DNA of 55,047 bases from Chrysophaeum taylorii (lineage: Eukaryota; Sar; Pelagophyceae; Pelagomonadales; Pelagomonadaceae), in NCBI GenBank assembly GCA_029834535.1, contig JAQMWT010000460.1, forward strand, positions 1 through 55,047, read 5' to 3'. The position numbers and the translations under genes were made by a program. The notes beneath the pieces are model-generated. The model was given only the letters and a program-made list of their open reading frames with translations, was not told the DNA's origin and searched no databases. Shown piece by piece: positions 43,629 to 55,047 of this stretch (within the stretch, counting starts at the first letter, position 1; the number at the start of each line of letters is the position of its first letter).

Positions 43629-45122
43629 TCAGGGCGAAGATTGCGAAGTGAGGTAAAGAGCGTGAAGCCGGAGGAAGGAAGGAGCTTCCGTACTGCGGGT
43701 GAAAGTATCGCTAAGGTTGTCAAGGCGGGGAATGTGGTGGAGATCAATGATGTGGTTGCGATGATATTCGGCGGTGCTGTAAAAGCGAATGTCAACATGG
43801 CGGGTGCGCCGTGTGAGACATTGGAGACGGACTTGGGTGACGGTGGTGCTATTATCGACATACATTGGTACCGTGTGACGAGGGAGATCAAAGTCATCAA
43901 AAAGTTTGAGAAGCCAAGAGAGCTCAGCAGTAGCGGCGTAAAGAGCGAGCAATTCAGCTTCAAAAGAAGAGCGAGCAAGGAGGTACTGCGAGCGGGAGCA
44001 GTAGGCTATCATAGAGCCAGCAAGGAGAAAACAAAAACCAGTTGTGGAGTGGCGGTCATCAGGGTCGTCGGCCCAGCTGGAGTCGGAATAACCACAGAGA
44101 CGAAGGGTAGAATCGCGACCAAGAATAAGGGCAAGATCCTGAGAACCGTTGAGATAACGCAGAGTGTGGGATAAAGCGTGCCAGTGGGGTTTACCAGGAT
44201 TGTGTGAAAAACGCGCACACTGATTGACGGACCAAGTGATATCAGGGCGAGTCATAATGGAAATAAATAGGACACAGCCAACAATACGACGAAAAGGGAT
44301 GCGCGCCATGAAGATGTGATCTGGAGAACCAGGAGCAGGACAATCAGCCGCAGAAAGATGAAGACCTTTGGGAGCGGGAGTCAGTTCAGGTTTACTGTTG
44401 ATGAAGCGATGTTCGGTAAGGATTTCACGGATAGCATGGGATTGGTCAAGAGTGAGCGTGCGTCTAGGACGGTCACGCGTAATGCGAAGACCAACGTAAG
44501 TGGTGAGATCAAGCTCGTTGACGTCAGTGAAGGTTCTGAAACGGAGGAAGAAAGCTTGGTAATGGCCAAGGCAATGACGATGGTGCGCCACAAGAAGATC
44601 ATCAACGACAAGAACGTGACGTAGGACAACGGTAGAATTAAGCACGAGCTTGTAATTGCAAGTGCCACCAGATCCGCGGACGAAGCCACAATCATTGACA
44701 AGGAAGCGTTCCGAATAAAGCCACCAATTACGACAAGCTTGTTTGCAACCATACCAAGAGCGACGGAGCTTGTAAACGATCTTGGAACCATCGGTGGGTT
44801 GGCGAGGAGCATAGCCTTCGGGTGGCCAGACATAGACGTCTTCGTCAATGGGAGCTTGGATAAAAGCGGAGCTGACGTCCAACTTGTGCAAATCCCAGTC
44901 ATGAACAGCAACAAAAGTTAGAAAGAAACGGATCGTGACGATGTTAGCAACCGGCGAGTAGGTGTCGTGATAATCAATGCCGTGAACCTGGGTGTAACCG
45001 CGGACAACGACGCGAGCCTTGTACGATTTGAAGCGGCCAGAGTCATACTTCTTGCGGAGGATCCACTTGAGGGTACAAATGTTGCCAGAAAAGTCGAAGG
45101 AACGCGAACAACATCCAAGCAA
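43629..45122 (-). pseudogene. Copia reverse transcriptase and RNase H
   Basis: The frame of 497 codons holds the RVT_2 type RT: YDTYSPVA-like (YHDTYSPVANIVTIRF), DLHKLDVSSAFIQAPIDEDV, and the polymerase box LVVDDLLVAHH. The usual YVDD reads VVDD here. RNase H follows (GYSDSSWADDPDDRHSTTGF, SSFEAELLALYAATAE, and TRHVDIRFYS in place of the usual KHID-R-H). The frame is open throughout, but its N-terminus is out of phase with the integrase frame. The end is 43629. Confidence 0.85.
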
Positions 45123-46765
45123 CCAAGCTGACCAAGGGGATGATATTCTTTGGCGATGGCTTGCAACCAGCCAGGACGCTCAGGATTGGTCTGAGCTAAA
45201 GCTTCACGTAAATGGGTGAAAATAATGTTTGAGTTGTCAATGTATGAATACTGAGAGGTTTCTTCGGAAGCAGAGTAATAAACATGTGCATGGGGATCAA
45301 CAAGGGTGTTAGCTAAACAAAGGGGGAGGAAGACATAATGAAGTAACAAACGAAAGCTAGAATAAGAGACATACAAAGAGTGACAGGAGGAAACAGAAGC
45401 GACAGAGGAAACAGAATCGACATTGTGACAGGATGAAACAGAATCGACATTGCGTTGTTGACAAACGCCAGTATGAAAGTTTGTTGGTTTTTGTAATGCG
45501 CTTTGGTCGACTTTGCGCGGTCGGCCCCGTTTGGCTCGACGTAATGGTGCACGTTTCGTATTGTCTTTTGACGGTTGTGGTATTGTTTGAGGGGTGATCA
45601 GTCCCGATAAGACCGGCTCCTGAGCATCAAAAACAGAAGACAAGGGAGCAACGGCGGAAGATAAACGAGGGTCGTAAAAAAATAAGTCAGGAAAACGAGA
45701 ATCCACAAGAGGCGGAGGAAGGTGTTGAGAGGACAGAGACTTACGCAGAGCAAAATTTTCGTCAAAAACAACGTCAATCGAGGTGTGGATGACGGGACCA
45801 GTGGCGCGTTGAAGCAATATGCGATATCCAGGGCCTGCAGAGGGATACCCAATGAAGATACCTGTTATAGCTTTGGTAGGCCATTTGTCGCCAGTAAGAA
45901 TTGCAGCAGGACAGCCCCAAACACGAAGAAAATCGACACGGGGGAGAGTTTCATGTAGCATTTCATATGGCGTCATATATCCAGGGTTAGAGACGTTTGG
46001 CATGCGCTCAGAGATGAAGTCAGCCGTTTCCATGGCCCAACGCCAAAAATCAGGTGGACTGTGCGCATGCACCAAAAGAGCGCGAGTAATATCAGCAGTG
46101 GCGCGATGAGAGCGTTCCACAACACCAGAAAAAGTGTGCGCCTGTGAAGTTTTGGACTGAGCTGCAGGAGCACGTTTGAGAGCGATGTTGTTGCCCAGAC
46201 AGAAGGTTTCGAATTGGCCCATAAGAGAGCGGTCACGATCTGTGTAGATGAGGGCAATGCGATATCCAAATGGGCGAACCACGGTAGACAGAAAAAGTTC
46301 GAGTTGACGAGCGTTCGTAAGTGCATCGTGTCGTGGAGCAAAGTAACGTGTGCGGCGGCGCGCATAATCATCGACAAACGTGAGGATCGCTCTGTCTTGA
46401 TGAATAAAGGAAGGGGCGCCTGCAAACATGAGATCGGCGTGGATAATAAGATAGGGCGGAACAGCACGAGGACGAGACAAAGGCTCGGAGGCAGGAAGCG
46501 AGGTGGAAGTGGAGGCATGTGCTTTACGTTGGCCAACATGCGCAGCATGCATTTTACCTAGAGCACAAGCAGGACAAAAAGAAAGAGACGCGGAGCTCGG
46601 GAAAAGCGGTGCGCCAACAGCGAGAGAAAGACAAACGTCGGATATAAGAGGGACTATAGTGACCAAGACGAGCAAGCCGAAGGTCGAAGGTAAGTTGAGT
46701 GCGTTGAGACACAGCGGGAAACGCACAAGGGTCATGGTCGCGAGGGCAAGAAGAAAATGCCACAA
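44918..46765 (-). pseudogene. Copia integrase
   Basis: The frame of 615 codons holds a degenerate pre-integrase zinc region (FCPACALGKMHAAH) and an rve integrase core. Catalytic acids are in LIIHADLMFAG, ALIYTDRDRSLMG and GVVERSHRATADI. A downstream conserved stretch follows (FLRVWGCPAAI, FIGYPSAGPGYRILL). A Ser/Lys/Pro-rich linker comes after, and the frame then runs out of phase with the RT, with a frameshift near 45100 within the RT start (WLQAIAKEYHPLGQLGCLDVV). Confidence 0.8.
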
Positions 46766-46784
46766 AAGGTGAAACGAAGTCCGC

Positions 46785-48306
46785 TTAGGGCGCAGCGGTC
46801 GTATTGCCGATCCAACAGACGATCAAAAGAAGACCACAGCGACGAAGCAGGGGAATAACGTGATGCGTTTGTCGGTGACGTAAAATGCGTTGCGGATGAG
46901 CAGGGCCAACAGCCTGAATCGTGTGACAATCGTAACCAACTTGCTCAAGGGCATGATCCGAAAGAATCCGTTTGTCACCAAGGCCAGGAGAAATGAGGGT
47001 ATGCGGGAACGCGACATGGATACCATCGGGGGCGGAAAGAGTGGGTGGAGGAGAAGGAAGACCACGATTGTCGAGAGGACCAATTGAAGGAAACGTTAAG
47101 TGAGCAGTGCCAGAACCAGAAACAGAGCCAGTGCCGATAGCATAAGTGATTGAGTGCTGTTGAGTGTTGTCAAGGTCAGTGAAACCAGCAGAAGAATTGA
47201 AGAGATTGACGTTTGCGCCGGTATCGTAGACGACGAGGCGAAGGTTGTTGCTGTGCAGGTAGTCGCGCTCACGAGCGGTGAGCAGAGCGGTAAGAGCATT
47301 GGTGGAGGAAAGAACTTGATGAATGGAGGGGGAGATAGAAAGAAGATGGTAATTGAAAGACGGGTAGGTGGGTGCAGAAAATGATGGGTCAGGAGGGGAG
47401 ATGGCAGTGGAAGGTGGGACAGAAGGCGTGGTGGTGGGTGGCAACGCAAGAAGCGGCGGAGAAGGTTGAGATGGGGGCAAGAGTGGGTTGGGGGCGGAAA
47501 GATAGTTTTGGTAGAATGGTGGATGGGGCCGAGGTGGGTATTGGGGATTGAGTCGAGGTGGGTAGTGGGAATTGGACCGAGGTGGGTATTGGGGATTGGA
47601 TCGAGGTGGGTATTGGGGACGAGGGCGAGGGCGGCCGGTGGCTTGTGAGAGCAAATAGCGCTGGCGCTTACGACAATCTTTCTGGTGATGGCCAGGAATA
47701 CCACAAAAGTGACAAAGGTCAGTAGGGCGTGGGCGCTTGCGATGGAAAGAACCACGGGAACGGAAAGATGGGCGAAAAGATGGGCGGGGGCTAGAACGTT
47801 GTTGGGAGCGCAAAGCATTGAGACGATGAAGGCATTTATCAAAAGGATGGTTGGTACGACCGCAAAAGCTGCAACGTTCACGATGGCGGGGACTTTCACG
47901 GAGCGTAGCATGGACAAGCGCAGACTTGGTCTGAAGATAATCGAAAACTTTACTGTTGAGGCGATCAACGAAACCACAATACGTGCGCAGTTTAGGGACA
48001 AGTGCAATGAGATCCTTAGACAAGATCGAGTCGGGGATTTTCGTCTGAAGCAATTGCAATGCTCATGTCAGGGAAATCTTGATGATGCCGAGCAACTTGA
48101 ACACCAGTGATGAACTCGTTAAGAAAAGACTCAAGCTCATCGATATTGTTGCATACCAAGGAATGCAAGGAAGCAATTGCAGACTGAGCGACGCGATCTC
48201 CATGGCCCATGTAAACATCGGTAATGCGCTTGTAAAGCCGCGTGAAGTTCATATCGCGGTTTTCACGGATATCCGCACGATCAGTATCATGCATTGGTAG
48301 CGCCAT
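46785..48306 (-). pseudogene. Copia gag and protease
   Basis: Two overlapping frames (48306-48016 and 48059-46785) together make a Gag-protease reading, with one frame change near 48040. The Gag part begins MALPMHDTDRADIRENRDMN and is helical (LHSLVCNNIDELESFLNEFI). Two zinc knuckles follow: CSFCGRTNHPFDKC and CHFCGIPGHHQKDC. A long Pro/Tyr-rich repeat of about 8-10 residues (PPRSNPQY type) comes next, then a retroviral-type aspartic protease core with the catalytic DTG in LVVYDTGANVNLF. Gag packages element RNA and the protease cuts the polyprotein. Coding continues into integrase in another frame. Confidence 0.8.
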
Positions 48307-48309
48307 GAA

Positions 48310-48735
48310 CAGTGCAGAGTACCAACGTTGCTGCTTAACACCAAATTCTTCTTCAGAGCTGTGGCGTAAGGAGAATTTTAGGGGCTACCTGGCGTGCCTT
48401 TGAATCCTGGCTCGCCGCTCGCGTCCGTGCCCTTGGTGAAGTCACTGGACGAGGATGGCCGTTCTCCCGCCACACAACCACAAACAACTTCCGTGCCTGG
48501 TCCTCACAACTTGAGGACCGGCTGTTGCTTTATGATCAAGGTATATTGAAACACAGACATCAGGGTGACGCATGTCACGGAAAAGGAAGATGATGTCATA
48601 GAGAACACTGACATCATCAGAACGGAGTAGGGTGCCCCTGATAAGGGGGGCCCTAGAAGAGGGGTATGCCTTAGGAAACGGGAGTTGCCGCCACAGGACT
48701 CCCCTGGTAAGAATTCGAGCTGCCCCAGCGAGGTG
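48310..48735. other. Junction between copia and gypsy elements, probable LTR-side sequence
   Basis: This is noncoding sequence between the gag start of the copia copy and the 3' coding end of the gypsy copy. Expected contents are the copia 5' LTR/leader and the gypsy 3' LTR, but I could not match either to a second copy. A perfect 10-bp inverted repeat lies at 48589-48618. Confidence 0.45.
48589..48618. promoter_or_regulatory. Perfect 10-bp inverted repeat with CRE-like half-sites
   Basis: gatgatgtca (48589-48598) and tgacatcatc (48609-48618) are perfect reverse complements around a 10-nt loop. Each arm holds tgatgtca or tgacatca, close to bZIP/CRE sites. Further tgacgcatgtcac palindromic sequence lies just upstream (48566-48578). 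It could be an LTR enhancer or a hairpin. Confidence 0.5.
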
Positions 48736-50668
48736 CTAGCGCGAGGAGCGCGGCTTCGCCTTACGAGCATCTCGTGAGCGAATCTTCTGGTAAACGCGGG
48801 TGATGACCGGTTCAGGAACTCGGCCACTGCGTAAAGTAAACTTGGGAATCAACACATCAATCTCGTGCGGAGCGAAATCCGTGACACAAGGAGCTGTGTT
48901 GGAGGAAATTCGGGACTTGTCGGTGAAACTTCGACCTTCAACGTCCTTGAACTCGGGCTTGAGCTTGCGGTGCGAAAGGTGAGAGGTCGGCTTGAAATAA
49001 GCGACATCATAATTCGGACCCAAATCAGAATAGAAATGGAGAGCAACACGATCATTTTGGTAATCGTAAGGCTCGTAAACTTCAGCAACATAAATCTTCT
49101 TGCATCAATCAGAGCGCTTCCGGTCGGGAACCCGCAAAACAACAAACTTACCGTGCTGATAATCATCACGGAAGGTTTCTTCGGGTTTGCGGATGGTTTG
49201 ATCAACGATCGGAGGTACCATCACAGGCGTGATCTGACTAACATGAACACGTCGTTCTTCGGGCGGAGAGTCGAGAGACTCAATCCTATAGGTGACCGGG
49301 GAAATGCGTTCCTTGATATAAATGGTCCTCGCCATTCCGGTCGAAGTTTGTTCTGAAGGAAAGGAATGTAGAGCAAAACGTGCGATCCTTCCTTGTATTC
49401 AACATCGACATGATCGGCATTGTAGGCCAATCGTTGTTTCTTCAAAGCTTATCACGAGCCTCTTGCACGATCTTCGTATAATACTTCAATCGTTCACGAG
49501 TTTCGGCGACTGCATCAGAGCGAGTCTTCGGCAATAATCGCGAATCAAAGTCCATAAGTGTGTAGTCGGTCGGCAGCATCGGCTGACGGTTCAGGCGCAG
49601 CATAAAGGGAGAAATCTGCGTGCCTGGAATAAACTTGCGGTTGTAGCAAAACGCAATATAATGAGCAAAGTCGGGCCAATCCGTGATGTTCCGGCCCTGA
49701 AGGCAAGCACGGAGGAAGGCCTTGATAAATCGGTTGACACGCTCAGCCGGGTTCGACTGGGCATGATAGGGAATCGTAGTTTGGTATCGTGTGTTGAAGA
49801 GATGGCAAAACTCGCGCATCAACTTGTTCACGAACTCTTTACCGTTGTCGGTACGAATCGTCTGGGGCAAGTAGCCCTTGAGGAGAATGTTAATGACAAA
49901 AGACTCGAGGACAGACTCAGCAGTCTTATCGTTCAAAACATCCAGCATCAAGAAAGGCGAGAACGGATCAAAAAAAACTAGAAGATACGTCTCGGGACCA
50001 GCGCTGGGCAAGGGTCCAAATAAATCCATGCAGAGAACAGCACCATCACCATCGTAGACGGGCTGCTGCAAGAGTCCAGCTCGTTTCGGCTCAGGCGTGC
50101 GAGCTTTCTGGCAAACTAAACATTCAGCAATGAAGACTCCAACTTCGTTCGACATGTGAGGCCACCAAAATCGTTCTTGGATAGCCTGGACAGTACTGTG
50201 ACGTCCCATATGACCACCGTTAACCGGAGTGTCATGGTAGAGTCGAATAATGCGCTTGCGCAACGTAGCAGGTGCAACAATCATCGGGTGCAAATCAGCA
50301 GAAATGCGGTAAAGAACGTCTTTAACGACTTCGAATCGTTCGTTCGCTCGGGAACGTCGCGGCGTCTGACCTTGGGCCATTCGGTAGCGAATATCCTCGC
50401 AAGTAGCATCAGATTCTTGCTCACGTGCGATCTCAGCGAGCGTCATATTATCGGGTATCTTATCGATATAATATTTGTAAGCGGCTGCGTCCTTGAAGAT
50501 CTGTGGCTCATCGCGCGCACGGTTCTTCCGACGTTGTCTCGTAGCGTGAGACGTAGCCAATTTCATCGGATCCTTTTCAGGATTTTCTTCCTCGTCTTCC
50601 AGCAGTTCGGTCGTAATAAACGACATTATGAAATGACAGCCGGAGGCGGGAACTCCTCGGGTCATCAA
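48736..50668 (-). pseudogene. Gypsy integrase with C-terminal extension
   Basis: The frame 50668-49442 holds a zinc-binding HHCC domain (YHDTPVNGGHMGRHS, then CLVCQKAR) and the catalytic core with Asp in LCMDLFGPLPS, Asp in TIRTDNGKEF and Glu in SNPAERVNRFIKAF. It runs on, after a frame change near 49440, into a GPF/Y-like module (LRPEWRGPFIS) and the ISPVTYRIESLDSP beta-strand (frame 49335-49105). A further frame change leads to the segment 49023-48736 (PTSHLSHRKLKPEFKDVEGR), whose role is unknown. Integrase inserts the element DNA into the genome. Confidence 0.85.
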
Positions 50669-51281
50669 CAGGTCGGGGAAGCTCTTGGAACGCCAAATAA
50701 GCGTGGTTCAAAGGTTCTCCAAACTCGTCAGTCTCGATGACATGATCTATCGGGTTGCGGGAGAGACAGTCAGGGATACTCATTCCCGGTGACTTTCCCG
50801 GCTTGTAACCAAGTTCAGGGTCAAAATTGGCGAGGCGCATCGCCCAACGAGCAAGCTGCCCAGACGAGTGCGTCGCCTTACGTAAAAACGTCAAATTTCG
50901 GTGATCGGTCTCCAAAACAGTACGGTGCCCTTCGATGTAGGCTCGAAAGTGCTCTAGAGAAAGTATAACTGCCAGCAGCTCTAGCCGACGGGGCTCGTAA
51001 TTGCGCATCTCCTTCGGCACAGCTCGGCTCCAATATTCAATCACTCGTTCTTCTCGAGTCACTCTTCCGGCATCGTCCTTGACTTCGACAAACTGGAAGA
51101 GATATGCTCCAAGTCCATCCTTGGGAGCATCGGATCGGATCTGAAAAGGCAGATCATAATCGGGGTGGTAGACTCCTCGGGAATCAACCAAAGCTTCAAT
51201 AATCGTATCCCAAGCTATCTGACACTCGGGCGTCCACTCGAACTTTACACCTTCGAGCCATAATCGTCTCAGCGGTTCCAC
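50577..51281 (-). pseudogene. Gypsy RNase H domain
   Basis: The frame of 234 codons fits the RT-associated RNase H of gypsy elements: KFEWTPECQIAWDTIIEAL, IRSDAPKDGLGAYLFQF, EYWSRAVPKEMRNYEPRRLE and LETDHRNLTFLRK. It ends MSIPDCLSRNP, the usual LSR motif. It overlaps the start of the integrase frame and is in a different frame from the RT pieces above it. Confidence 0.85.
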
Positions 51282-51301
51282 GATCTTCGAGTAGCCCTTC
51301 G

Positions 51302-52200
51302 CTATCGCCGGCAGTAATTACTCATTCCGATGAAAGAGCGCATCTGGGTCTTCGGGGGAGTATTCGGTAAAGTACCTGGAATCGGCATCTTCTGCAGCGC
51401 TTCCAGCGTCTTCGGATTCGCCTTCAGGCCTTCTGGAGTTGAAATGTGTCCCATATATTCTATATCATCTTTTAGAAGGTGGAACTTCGCGGTTCGACCG
51501 CTGTACCCTCTCTGTGCCAAATGACACATCACTTCGATCGTCCTGTAAATGTCGATGAAGATCGTCGGATCCCATCATAATATCGTCAACAAACGCAACC
51601 AAGTCTTGATACATCCATTTCGAAAGGTCGCTCGCCATTTGCTTGCAGAAAAGCTCCGGCCGTCTTCACCCTAGAGGTAATCGCAAGAAACTATGAGCGC
51701 CAAGTGGGCTAACCATCGTGACAGCTCTTGCGCTGCCGGATCCAGACGAAGGTTGTGGTATCCCCATCCATATCAATGCATGTCCGCCATCGTCTCATGG
51801 CGAAAAGCTAAAGCATCATCTTGTCGAATGTTCGGCCAACTGTCATTGGCCAATTGATCGTTGAGCTGACGTAAGTCAACTGCAGCACGGAACGCGATCT
51901 CAGCTCCTTTCTTCGGAAGCATCAACACAGGAAAGCCCCAAGGTGAGTTGGCCGGACGAATGACTCCATCCCGGCACCACCGCTGATCTGCTTGCGGAGA
52001 CAATCGAGCTTCGCAGGCGTCAATCGGTAGGGCGTCATCTCAATCGGTCGCGGATTCGCGTCTTTGAATCGTAGAGACACAGGAGGCGAGTCCACGTCTC
52101 ATAATCGGGTCGAAAAAGGCCCAAGAATATTGCGCACAGTGACGGAGCATCAGTTTCGCATCGTCATCTAAGTGCGGATTGTCAGGAATTCCAGCTCCTG
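51302..52200 (-). pseudogene. Gypsy reverse transcriptase, broken
   Basis: The RT reads in at least three frames. The first part (frame 52003-51773) has GVIRPANSPWGFPVLMLPKK and AAVDLRQLNDQ. The polymerase box LVAFVDDIMMGSDDLHRHL lies near 51545-51605, so the usual YVDD is FVDD. The last part (51532-51302) has RTAKFHLLKDDIEYMGHIST, then an LK...K..AL..MP...F.G..NYCRR ending. No single frame spans the domain. N-terminal residues before 52003 (DDDAKLMLRHCAQYSWAFFD) continue in other frames. Confidence 0.8.
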
Positions 52201-52451
52201 AATCTTGTCAACTTCTTCCTTCGTTGGAACTTGAACTTTCATGCGCTTCATTATCCTTGACATGCTCGGGAGTTTGCGGCAGCGGTGCACCCTCAGCATC
52301 GCGCGGCGCATCTTTCCATGGCACATCGATCGCCTTTCTCATATTTTGTCTCACTTCCGGTGGCTTTTGTTGATCCTCTCGCCTTTGACACGAACACTCG
52401 GCTCGCTCTTGATCTTCGGTTCCCGATCTCGCTCAGGATCTGGCGGAACGT

Positions 52452-53737
52452 CTAAATTTGGTTGTCGGGGGGGGGCAGCAGAAGAAGCATGAGACGTCCC
52501 CGGCTCATCTGTTGCAGGCGGAACCAACGGTACCTCTGGAGGTTTCCGTTGGTGTGATCTTGGAGATCATTAGTCGACACCCATATGACGACACGTGTGC
52601 GCGTGTTTAACAGCGGAACTTGTACGTGACGAAGGGTGGTTTCATCAATTTGCAAATAATAATCAAACGGTCGGTCTGCAGGACTCAACGCTGACGGCAA
52701 AGCTTCGCCGCTCAGGTGAAAATCCTTGGTCACAGAGTTGTGCAGATCGAGTACTAATAAGGTCATCGTGTCTGGTGGCGCGACGGACGCCAAGTGTTTC
52801 AACGAGGTCGTCCTGGAGAAGCCGGCCCAATCAAAATCAAGGGGCATAGTCAGCAACTCCGAAGTCATTTTCAGATTCAGAGATCTGTAATCGGAACGTT
52901 GCGGTCCTACGCGAAGCGGGACACGCGTAACGGTATAAGCTGCGTCTGTCGCGGCTCGTGATGATCCTAAATTGTTCATCTGAAGTAAATGTCGTTCGTC
53001 GGCGTAGCCAAGTGCTGCGCGAACTCTTGCTGCATATACTTGCAATCTTTGGAACTGCGCGCAAATGGAGCGGATGGCTGGAAACCAACAAGCGCACGCG
53101 ACAGCTCATCAAACTGGGTTATGTCGTAAAAATTGACGACGTACACGTAAGGGTGCAAACGTGCAACGTAAGAAATAATCGAAGCCTCCTGCTCTATCAA
53201 CCATGAAGAAACCAGCCATCTTGCATAATTTCATCGTCCAGTGGGTAGCGGTGACTCCTTCCCATCTCTGGAGGTCAAGTTGCACAGAGCGGAGTGTACG
53301 GAGGGTGGCGACGCGATACACATCGACGACGACCATTCCGCGTAGGGTAAATAAGATTCGATCAACCGTAAGGTTGTAACATAGCGACCACACAGTGTGT
53401 GCTGCACCACAGGAATATTCGGAAAATTCTTATGGTGGATCTGGTTGGCGGTGTCCGACGCATCGAGTGCTAGCACGACTCGAAACGACGTCCCACACGT
53501 TTCGTTGGCTCGTTGGAGACCTAAAGTACTGCCTCCGGCTCCACTGAACAGCATCACCACCTTGCGATAAGTGATTGGAAGCCATTGAACCTTTTCGTAT
53601 CGGCGGCGGATCTCCGCTTCGGTGATCTCGCTGCCTTCGGGTCTTTTTAGGGTGGACTTGTCCGCCATAGCGGTCGTAGCGTCCTTCTGCACCGTGCTCA
53701 GCAGCATCGGCGGGGGAGATTCGTCGCATCGCGTCAA
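52452..53737 (-). pseudogene. C5-cytosine DNA methyltransferase domain inside the gypsy element
   Basis: The frame 53737-53231 opens with a short charged leader and then motif I of C5-methyltransferases (KVVMLFSGAGGSTLGLQRAN), which binds S-adenosylmethionine. A motif II-like stretch follows (VVLALDASDTANQIHHKNFP), then the motif IV loop in CIASPPSVHSALCN. The catalytic Cys of the PPC motif reads Ser (codon TCC) here. After a frame change near 53260, WTMKLCKMAGFFMV leads to an IEQ sequence at the place of motif VI ENV (frame 53200-52976), then NFYDITQFDELSRALVGF, which fits degenerate motif VIII. The last frame (53045-52452) has YTVTRVPLRVGPQ, LLTMPLDFDWAGFS and HLASVAPPDTMTLLVLDLH, the expected target-recognition end and motifs IX-X. 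Such an enzyme would methylate cytosines in DNA. Family certainty is high for motif I, moderate elsewhere. Confidence 0.78.
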
Positions 53738-53825
53738 GTGACTAGCGACAGAAACGGTGAAAGAAGGCTCCCCTTGTCGTATCCTTCTTCACATTCTTTC
53801 GTAAGTTCGTTGATCGTAGAGACGT

Positions 53826-54503
53826 TCAACTCATCTTCGTACCTAACGATACCGCCAATCGCAAGGACTTCGCCTTGAGTGACGACCGTCGGCACTTCTT
53901 CCGTGGCAGTAACCGCCACCCGAGCAGCGGACCGGTCGTGCTCTTCGCAAGAAGAACACATTCCTTCGACAACTCCCAACTGCTCGTTCTCAGCAAACGT
54001 AGCGACGAAACCTGTCCCATTTCCATAGGTTTCGACAAAATAACCAGTAGATTGTAAGTTCGACCGGGCTCGATTTGAAGCGTGCGCGCAGCATAAGCGA
54101 CTACTTCCTGCGCGGCTTCTCCCGGAGCTGGGGAGAATTTGGTCGTAGCATGTCCCCGCGTAGCCAAGGCTACCGTACGTTCCGGCGGCGGGCTTCGGAG
54201 ATCTTTAATCGTGCTCAAACGAGCGTAAACTCGAGTCTTGACCAGGTCGAGACTCTTCCGAAAGGCATCGTGTTGATGATTGTAAATCGGTACGGTTATC
54301 GGATCTCGATCGTAAATAGATCGAAAGGTCACGATGGGTGCATCGACTCGTTCATCCTTAACTTTAATCTTCTTGCGCCCGTAGACGACTTGGGTTCGAT
54401 AAAAACAGATCCGATCGTGGGGATAGTCCACGACGGCTCCTAAAACTCGTATATCGCGCCCTCCAACAGGAACAGATAGTTCGTATCGGCTACAATAGCA
54501 CAA
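53826..54503 (-). pseudogene. Gypsy protease-like region and linker
   Basis: The frame of 225 codons begins with a beta-rich stretch (RYELSVPVGGRDIRVLGAVV then DYPHDRICFYRTQV) resembling the C-terminal half of a retroviral-type aspartic protease. The rest is a linker of unknown role. Upstream, around 54600-54800, other frames read LDTGTLTFIACH and VDGMADVSYICREMVRKH, either of which might contain the active-site Asp, but frame breaks prevent a firm call. Downstream it leads into the methyltransferase. Confidence 0.45.
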
Positions 54504-54511
54504 TGGGCAGC

Positions 54512-54564
54512 GATGTCGTCGGCGAGGGCGACCCGAGCGATCGATGTCGTCGGCGAGGGCGACG
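54512..54564. repeat. 22-bp direct repeat
   Basis: cgatgtcgtcggcgagggcgac occurs at 54512-54533 and 54543-54564, separated by 9 bp, in the 5' coding part of the gypsy element. Confidence 0.9.
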
Positions 54565-55047
54565 AATGGCGATCAACGATGATCGTCGTCGTATTCAACC
54601 TGATCCGTACAGCTTGCGCTTAATCGGAAGTTCGCCTTCATCGAAAATCAACTGATCTTTGTGCTTTCTGACCATTTCTCGGCAAATATAAGAAACATCT
54701 GCCATTCCATCGACACCGATGGTCGTCGAAATTTCGGTCCGTCACGATTCCTGTAGATGTGACAGGCTATAAACGTAAGAGTACCCGTATCTAAACAACG
54801 GAGGGTAACCAAATCATCTTCGATCGTCCTGCCGTCTCGCGGGTGTCAACGAAGTGTGAGCATCGGGCTCTGACTCGCTCATCTCCGGGGTTGGGCATCG
54901 ATACCGCGGCTTGAGCTTTCGTATCATCTGTTGGCGTCATCGCCATAACGCTCGCAGCCTCTTTATCTGGCGGCTTCCGCTCTTCCTCCAGACAATCTCG
55001 GAGGGAATCAACGCTGGTTGGGGATCCTGGTCTTCGTAGTTCTTGAA

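Follow-up and report, generated by a model that had tools for sequence, protein, structure and literature searches.

A multi-copy Ty3/gypsy retrotransposon of Chrysophaeum taylorii with a divergent C5-cytosine methyltransferase domain in its polyprotein, and a second methyltransferase in a copia-type repeat

Results

A broken gypsy element at the contig end

We analysed a window of 55,047 nt, i.e. the complete contig, the final 6.7 kb of which are filled by a broken Ty3/gypsy LTR element on the minus strand having lost its 5' side at the contig end (Table 1). Its DNA methyltransferase (DNMT) domain is preceded by a retropepsin-like stretch and followed by reverse transcriptase (RT), RNase H and integrase, all of them being encoded on this one strand. 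A first-pass annotation had claimed a gypsy element with its own C5-cytosine methyltransferase (C5-MTase) between a protease-like region and RT, and the window translation, Pfam and the genomic copies described below bear this out, with the same arrangement being present in a complete copy on contig C5 (C5 copy). The LFSGAGG motif I, the motif II-like stretch with NFP (ALD...NFPNIP) and the Pro-Pro motif IV it had pointed out are all visible in the minus-strand translation, while the range it gave for the DNMT, 52452-53737, is wider than the domain proper. A match to Pfam DNA_methylase, which it had proposed as a check, is obtained for the window ORF 53231-53788 (E=3.9e-4), but with 20.4 bits it stays under the 22-bit cut-off of PF00145, so that this piece alone would be doubtful.

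Table 1. Features of the gypsy element and of the adjoining LTR element in the window. RNase H and RT regions of the window were assigned by homology to the C5 copy, from whose ORF their Pfam scores derive.
Feature	Position	Strand	Evidence
Gypsy element	48360..55042	-	blastn vs C5 copy: 94.2% over 6793 columns
3' LTR, 336 bp	48360..48695	-	91.4% to 335-bp LTR of C5 copy
Integrase, H2C2 zinc finger and rve core, 421-aa open frame	49442..50707	-	Pfam PF17921 E=7.4e-19, PF00665 E=1.2e-11, window itself
RNase H region, open frame	50577..51317	-	homology to C5 copy, whose ORF has PF17917 E=1.9e-25
Reverse transcriptase region, frames broken	51302..52039	-	homology to C5 copy, whose ORF has PF00078 E=5.7e-12
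C5-cytosine DNA methyltransferase domain, frameshifted	52578..53593	-	tblastn of C5-copy DNMT, residues 1-342 of 342 in two frames; PF00145 on ORF 53231-53788
Motif I FSGAGG	53531..53548	-	translation; longer motif I stretch VMLFSGAGGSTLG
Motif IV position, SPPS in window	53300..53311	-	translation; other readable copies SPPC 30/31, PPPC 1/31
Motif VI LIEQE	53180..53200	-	translation; Glu invariant in 19/19 aligned copies
Motif IX-X region LASVAPP	52773..52793	-	translation; VVPP in other aligned lineage A and B copies
Retropepsin-like stretch CLDTG...VGGRDIRVLG	about 54410..54800	-	sequence reading only
Second LTR element, adjoining	44918..48062	-	zinc knuckle, DTG motif, weak integrase core, SH3_retrovirus

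The annotation had mentioned neither the broken state of this copy nor the copia-borne DNMT found elsewhere in the genome. The window DNMT is split over two frames, has an in-frame stop and carries Ser at the position of the catalytic Cys; the window copy is a relative of open-frame copies and is dead as read. For the adjoining LTR element, neither of its two frames matches DNA_methylase, and perhaps not every LTR element here has such a domain.

Copies across the genome

The window DNMT piece has at least 202 matches at E ≤ 0.001 in the 70.8-Mb host genome, a lower bound derived from scoring 150 of 802 first-look candidates, with 150 matches being listed. This number rules out a chance insertion. 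The window copy, broken and below the Pfam cut-off, might be taken for a chance or host-gene insertion into one element with a meaningless resemblance to methyltransferases, but this is refuted by hundreds of matches in three lineages, at the same position and under selection, and we give it virtually no credence.

The C5 copy spans 10.28 kb and has LTRs of ~335 bp and a single open frame of 3063 aa. As the only copy tested in this respect, it shows a simple direct LTR pair (TG...CA), the two repeats agreeing at 335 of 341 aligned positions, and it is also the sole complete copy the flanks of which were examined for a target-site duplication; these do not match. A Pfam scan of 2339 aa of its frame returned DNA_methylase, RVT_1, RNase H, H2C2 and rve in this order, comprising the RT-RNase H-integrase order of Ty3/gypsy elements. 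The DNMT is preceded by a retropepsin-like DTG...GGRD stretch found by reading, the corresponding part of the C5 copy giving no Pfam match.

Two refuting outcomes had been set beforehand, namely that no other genomic copy has the DNMT between protease and RT and that DNA_methylase is not matched. Neither occurred, although the match of the window ORF is below the cut-off. The RT list, for which 136 of 1127 candidates were scored, comprises 136 matches. Of these, 73 are preceded on their own strand by a listed DNMT match no more than 4 kb away, the distance being 1206-1246 bp in 63 of the 73 cases; the DNMT list used for this pairing consists of the 150 listed matches and 40 PF00145 matches hand-picked by profile range. 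We sampled four of the 63 unpaired RT loci and found a DNMT in three, the fourth being element sequence in opposite orientation, which makes the 73 paired loci a lower bound.

Three lineages with invariant catalytic residues

We aligned 19 open DNMT domains falling into lineages A (10 copies), B (5) and C (4). Compared to the DNMT of the C5 copy, the nine other lineage A copies are 87-98% identical, those of lineage B 77-82% and those of lineage C 38-39%. Copies were picked for open frames, leaving out the broken L034, L043 and L047-L049, and also L032, the latter without good reason, being open and 94.7% identical to the C5 copy; in L056 the frame breaks just upstream of motif IV. Lineage C has at least 128 matches in the genome (119 of 920 candidates scored), some being pieces of one copy, and its DNMT is followed by RNase H in the single locus that was read.

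Invariant in all 19 domains are Gly18, Gly20 and Gly21 of motif I, Pro96, Pro97 and Cys98 of motif IV and Glu136 of motif VI, together with Arg168 and Arg170 of motif VIII and a Val-Pro-Pro near the end. Motif IV can be read in 32 of 33 gypsy-type stretches, including the window (L060 does not span it), and contains PPC in 31 of these 32 (30 SPPC, one PPPC), PPS of the window being the sole exception. Glu136 is followed by Q, E, R or H, not forming ENV, and aligns in hhalign with the Glu of ENV in a host DNMT2-like protein, an alignment in which motifs I, IV, VI and VIII are all matched; 38 residues separate Cys98 from Glu136, the equivalent spacing in the host protein being 41. This alignment and the Cys-Glu spacing place motif VI at LIEQE, and on these grounds we rejected a reading in which the strand before motif VIII is motif VI and the gypsy DNMT lacks the motif VI Glu. 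Canonical C5-MTases have Glu in motif II and Gly-Asn in motif X; the gypsy DNMT has Asp in place of the former and Ala-Ser or Gly-Ser in place of the latter.

As isolated domains, the C5 copy, a lineage B copy and a lineage C copy score 25.3, 26.7 and 40.4 bits (the last over two stretches) against PF00145 with its cut-off of 22, and the whole C5 polyprotein reaches 19.0 bits, which is below it. A PF00145 match at E ≤ 0.1 is obtained for 19/19 aligned copies. In lineage C loci the motif IX-X region coincides with a match to the C-terminal part of PF00145, and for one of them (C260) N-terminal and C-terminal profile matches are both listed. The motifs in order, expressed as a pattern written after they had been seen and therefore post hoc and illustrative only, occur in 15 of the 19 copies and in none of 38,000 shuffles.

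The divergent motifs II and X and the weak profile scores, along with the absence of a methylation footprint (see below), would fit a domain no longer catalytic and retained as a structural SAM- or nucleic-acid-binding part of Pol. The Cys and the motif VI Glu are, however, invariant in 19/19 copies of lineages down to 38% identity, which would be unexpected if catalysis had been lost, making this explanation quite unlikely in our view.

Selection on the methyltransferase domain

The 50 pairs formed between lineages A and B have a median DNMT dN/dS of 0.089 (Nei-Gojobori method). The within-lineage medians are 0.23 for A (45 pairs), 0.27 for B (10) and 0.27 for C (6), values for which the choice of open frames favours low ratios, and lineage C compared to the others gives 0.21-0.27 with synonymous sites near saturation. 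All pairs share ancestry, so that these values are descriptive. In one A-B pair dN/dS is 0.078 for the DNMT and 0.026 for RT; the gypsy DNMT is constrained, less tightly than RT. The DNA identity of an A-B pair rises along the element, amounting to 0.66-0.70 ahead of the DNMT, 0.69-0.78 inside the domain, 0.75-0.81 past its end and 0.81-0.84 in RT. A swap of the DNMT module between gypsy lineages is not supported, as no sharp identity step is seen in this one pair.

Relationship to known methyltransferase families

A phmmer search of the PDB with the C5-copy domain returned chains of DNMT2 (E=0.046-1.4), enzymes of which the CFT motif is a hallmark, and one unrelated protein as the sole other match. 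The gypsy profile returned a prophage-encoded C5-MTase (3g7u) and DNMT2 (E=0.17-0.64), and the lineage C domain a single C5-MTase, 8yf3 (E=2.1), without any DNMT2 chain. No DNMT3 chain is present among the PDB matches at E ≤ 10 for the C5-copy and lineage C domains and at E ≤ 1 for the profile. In NCBIfam only the general dcm superfamily is matched, far under its cut-off. In hhalign the gypsy DNMT and the host DNMT2-like protein align at 25% identity across 142 columns (E=5.9e-5, probability 65%), and a comparison with a host DNMT5-like protein gives nothing. Foldseek ranks DNMT2 and DNMT1 first for an AlphaFold model of the gypsy domain, a ranking which counts little because the model is poor (pLDDT 37); the model of the copia domain described below is poor as well (pLDDT 33).

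From these comparisons we read the gypsy DNMT as a divergent C5-MTase of DNMT2/bacterial type, possibly descended from DNMT2 and apparently not of DNMT3 type. Among solved structures, DNMT2/TRDMT1 comes closest to the C5-copy domain in sequence and, judged from the poor model, in fold. The host DNMT2-like protein differs in being a free-standing frame, whereas in the gypsy element the domain forms part of Pol, and the PDB matches of lineage C include no DNMT2 chain. The repeated appearance of DNMT2 among the nearest proteins compared, i.e. in phmmer, in Foldseek with its poor model, and in hhalign with the host DNMT2-like but not the DNMT5-like protein, raises the alternative that the C5-MTase fold of the domain goes back to an RNA methyltransferase resembling DNMT2, its substrate being primer tRNA or the element's genomic RNA in the particle, and an RNA target would also account for the missing CpG decay (see below). 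All similarities to DNMT2 are weak, however, with 3g7u and 8yf3 standing alongside or ahead and DNMT1 ranking high in Foldseek, and the Pfam matches of lineage C span both N-terminal and C-terminal motifs of DNA methyltransferases; we consider an RNA-directed enzyme unlikely.

A protein database search with the gypsy DNMT alignment gave one match (E=9e-33), the metagenome protein P0001, which is encoded on a contig of 2.6 kb and shows 35% identity in an alignment spanning 54% of the query. P0001 contains the motif VI Trp and Glu and has PSC at motif IV, is without the C-terminal motifs and gives no Pfam match; it suggests that the gypsy DNMT family exists beyond the Chrysophaeum host. The same search with the whole C5 polyprotein, restricted to the DNMT region, gave no match, and neither the gypsy nor the copia DNMT matched any of the viral contigs searched.

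A different methyltransferase in a copia-type repeat

After the two host genes described below, the strongest PF00145 matches in the genome belong to a copia-type repeat, the DNMT of which (LPCQHLS) is present in all 18 non-host loci fetched (L011-L028). In the one locus scanned in full (L022:3776-9631), a 1952-aa frame contains DGGAS, a protease-like motif found by reading, followed by DNA_methylase (E=1.1e-7), rve (17.2 bits, under the Pfam cut-off of 32.6) and RVT_2 (E=1.6e-38), the latter identifying a copia element. At least 126 matches to this DNMT were found (116 of 660 candidates scored), some being pieces of one copy, and its median dN/dS is 0.175 (78 pairs from 13 copies).

As in the gypsy element, the polyprotein of an LTR element has a C5-MTase ahead of its integrase and RT; the copia DNMT differs in residing in an RVT_2 element and in having LPCQ at motif IV, ENV at motif VI and a degenerate motif I. 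The hhalign comparison of both DNMT profiles detects no similarity (probability 0.2%). The copia profile finds C5-MTases such as 4dkj (E=0.009) and HhaI as best PDB matches, both being of bacterial origin, with unrelated LysM kinases interspersed; its alignment gave no match in the protein database. We infer two captures, although the thin alignments could hide a very old common source. A further idea, which we regard as tentative and rather doubtful, is that gypsy and copia elements each captured a different C5-MTase at a similar Pol site, upstream of the enzymes making and inserting the cDNA, the gypsy one stemming from a DNMT2-like RNA methyltransferase and now directed at primer tRNA, RNA or cDNA of the element itself. 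If true, carriage of a cytosine methyltransferase would be a repeated solution of algal retrotransposons.

Discussion

Comparison with known elements

DNMT-bearing retrotransposons have been described from dinoflagellates and a charophyte. According to the accessible part of PMC5890265, KnitGypsy-Dnmt3 of Klebsormidium nitens has a Dnmt3 inside the gypsy Pol frame, in several copies and under purifying selection, and Symbiodinium LINE and DIRS elements carry DNMTs (SymbioLINE-Dnmt, SymbioDIRS-Dnmt3); when assayed in yeast, the DIRS enzymes showed CG activity and the Klebsormidium gypsy enzyme showed no activity, the latter result being termed inconclusive, and Iyer et al. 2011 is cited there among early reports linking DNMTs to RT. 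The available text of PMC12344493 places DNMT3 in 'LTR Copia and DIRS', citing PMC5890265, which itself says Gypsy. DAM-/DCM-bearing gypsy and DIRS elements are loosely stated for stramenopiles among others, with an antiviral role suggested, in the section accessible of PMC6338049, and that of PMC12477816 describes a brown-algal DNA transposon, likened to green- and red-algal ones, in which an N4C/N6A methyltransferase is encoded. A C5-MTase in an LTR element is not mentioned in the portions available of PMC9998398, PMC3145265 and PMC9033089. In the main texts of freely accessible papers we found no report of a copia element with a non-DNMT3 C5-MTase or of the present gypsy type.

As far as the accessible description goes, the present gypsy element shares with KnitGypsy-Dnmt3 the LTR gypsy type, a C5-MTase in the Pol frame, several copies and purifying selection on the DNMT. 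KnitGypsy-Dnmt3, in contrast, has a DNMT of the Dnmt3 family and a DIRS-like repeat arrangement, whereas the one complete copy here has simple direct LTRs and the present DNMT has FSGAGG at motif I, SPPC at motif IV and no DNMT3 among its PDB matches. The situation resembles that outlined for Symbiodinium in having many retrotransposon-borne DNMTs in one algal genome and in more than one element class, but SymbioDIRS is described with a tyrosine recombinase and SymbioLINE is a LINE, while here a gypsy element with rve integrase and a copia element with RVT_2 are concerned. DNMTs borne by gypsy elements being already known, the new aspects are the apparently non-DNMT3 type and the presence in two LTR superfamilies. 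The observation is real, multi-copy and selected, and the copia case is the larger surprise. Two unrelated families with different DNMTs suggest that such elements may capture host silencing chemistry more often than thought. In the compact 70.8-Mb genome of a probably photosynthetic alga, the matches run into the hundreds and belong to two LTR superfamilies, the enzymes apparently being unlike DNMT3, and open-frame beside broken copies offer a natural system for asking why an element carries the chemistry used to silence it.

Methylation traces and a model for the gypsy enzyme

CpG o/e is 1.31 for the C5 gypsy copy, 1.25 for the window copy and 1.37 for window positions 1-44000, to which both gypsy values are close; three copia loci of 10 kb each give 0.98-1.06. 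The ratio of CpG to non-CpG transitions is 1.27 between window and C5 copy, 0.75 within lineage A (45 pairs) and 1.39 for the copia family (6 pairs from 4 of 13 copies). These values show no strong deamination scar in the elements, so that either the elements are not methylated, or their methylation is transient or causes no mutations in the host. The proposal of the first-pass annotation that the element may have used self-methylation to moderate its own expression or its silencing by the host is unproven, leaving its interpretation as a whole partly supported.

We favour, with a probability of roughly 0.6, a model according to which a gypsy clade took up a C5-MTase between protease and RT before the three sampled lineages diverged, with purifying selection retaining the domain and the polyprotein product methylating cDNA. 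The DNMT would be made within the Gag-Pol polyprotein, freed by the element protease and packed together with RT, and could then methylate cytosines of the new cDNA, resulting in a copy that may enter the nucleus resembling host DNA or in the element's own expression being tempered. This model builds on the domain, its position and copy number, the conserved catalytic Cys and Glu and the low dN/dS, all of which are observed, and the hhalign match to the host DNMT2-like protein and the DNMT5-like gene and SRA domain of the host also speak for it. We count against it that CpG is not depleted and CpG transitions are not clearly in excess, the weaker constraint within lineages, the weak profile and PDB scores, the hhalign probability of only 65%, the divergent motifs II and X, the missing Pfam match of P0001 and the poor model.

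Host methylation genes

The host has a DNMT5-like gene with DNA_methylase and SNF2 domains (contig C621, L010:4238-10000), the DNMT2-like gene with its free-standing 360-aa frame (contig C634, L009:4509-5588, plus strand) and a single match to the SRA domain (contig C594:64137-64520, E=1.1e-13), the protein of which is likely a reader of 5mC. Together, these make upkeep of 5mC in the host plausible. The DNMT2-like gene is adjoined by a chlorophyll-binding protein on the opposite strand (L009:3702-5327, minus strand); the two frames overlap, with the chlorophyll-binding domain itself stopping before the DNMT2-like frame is reached.
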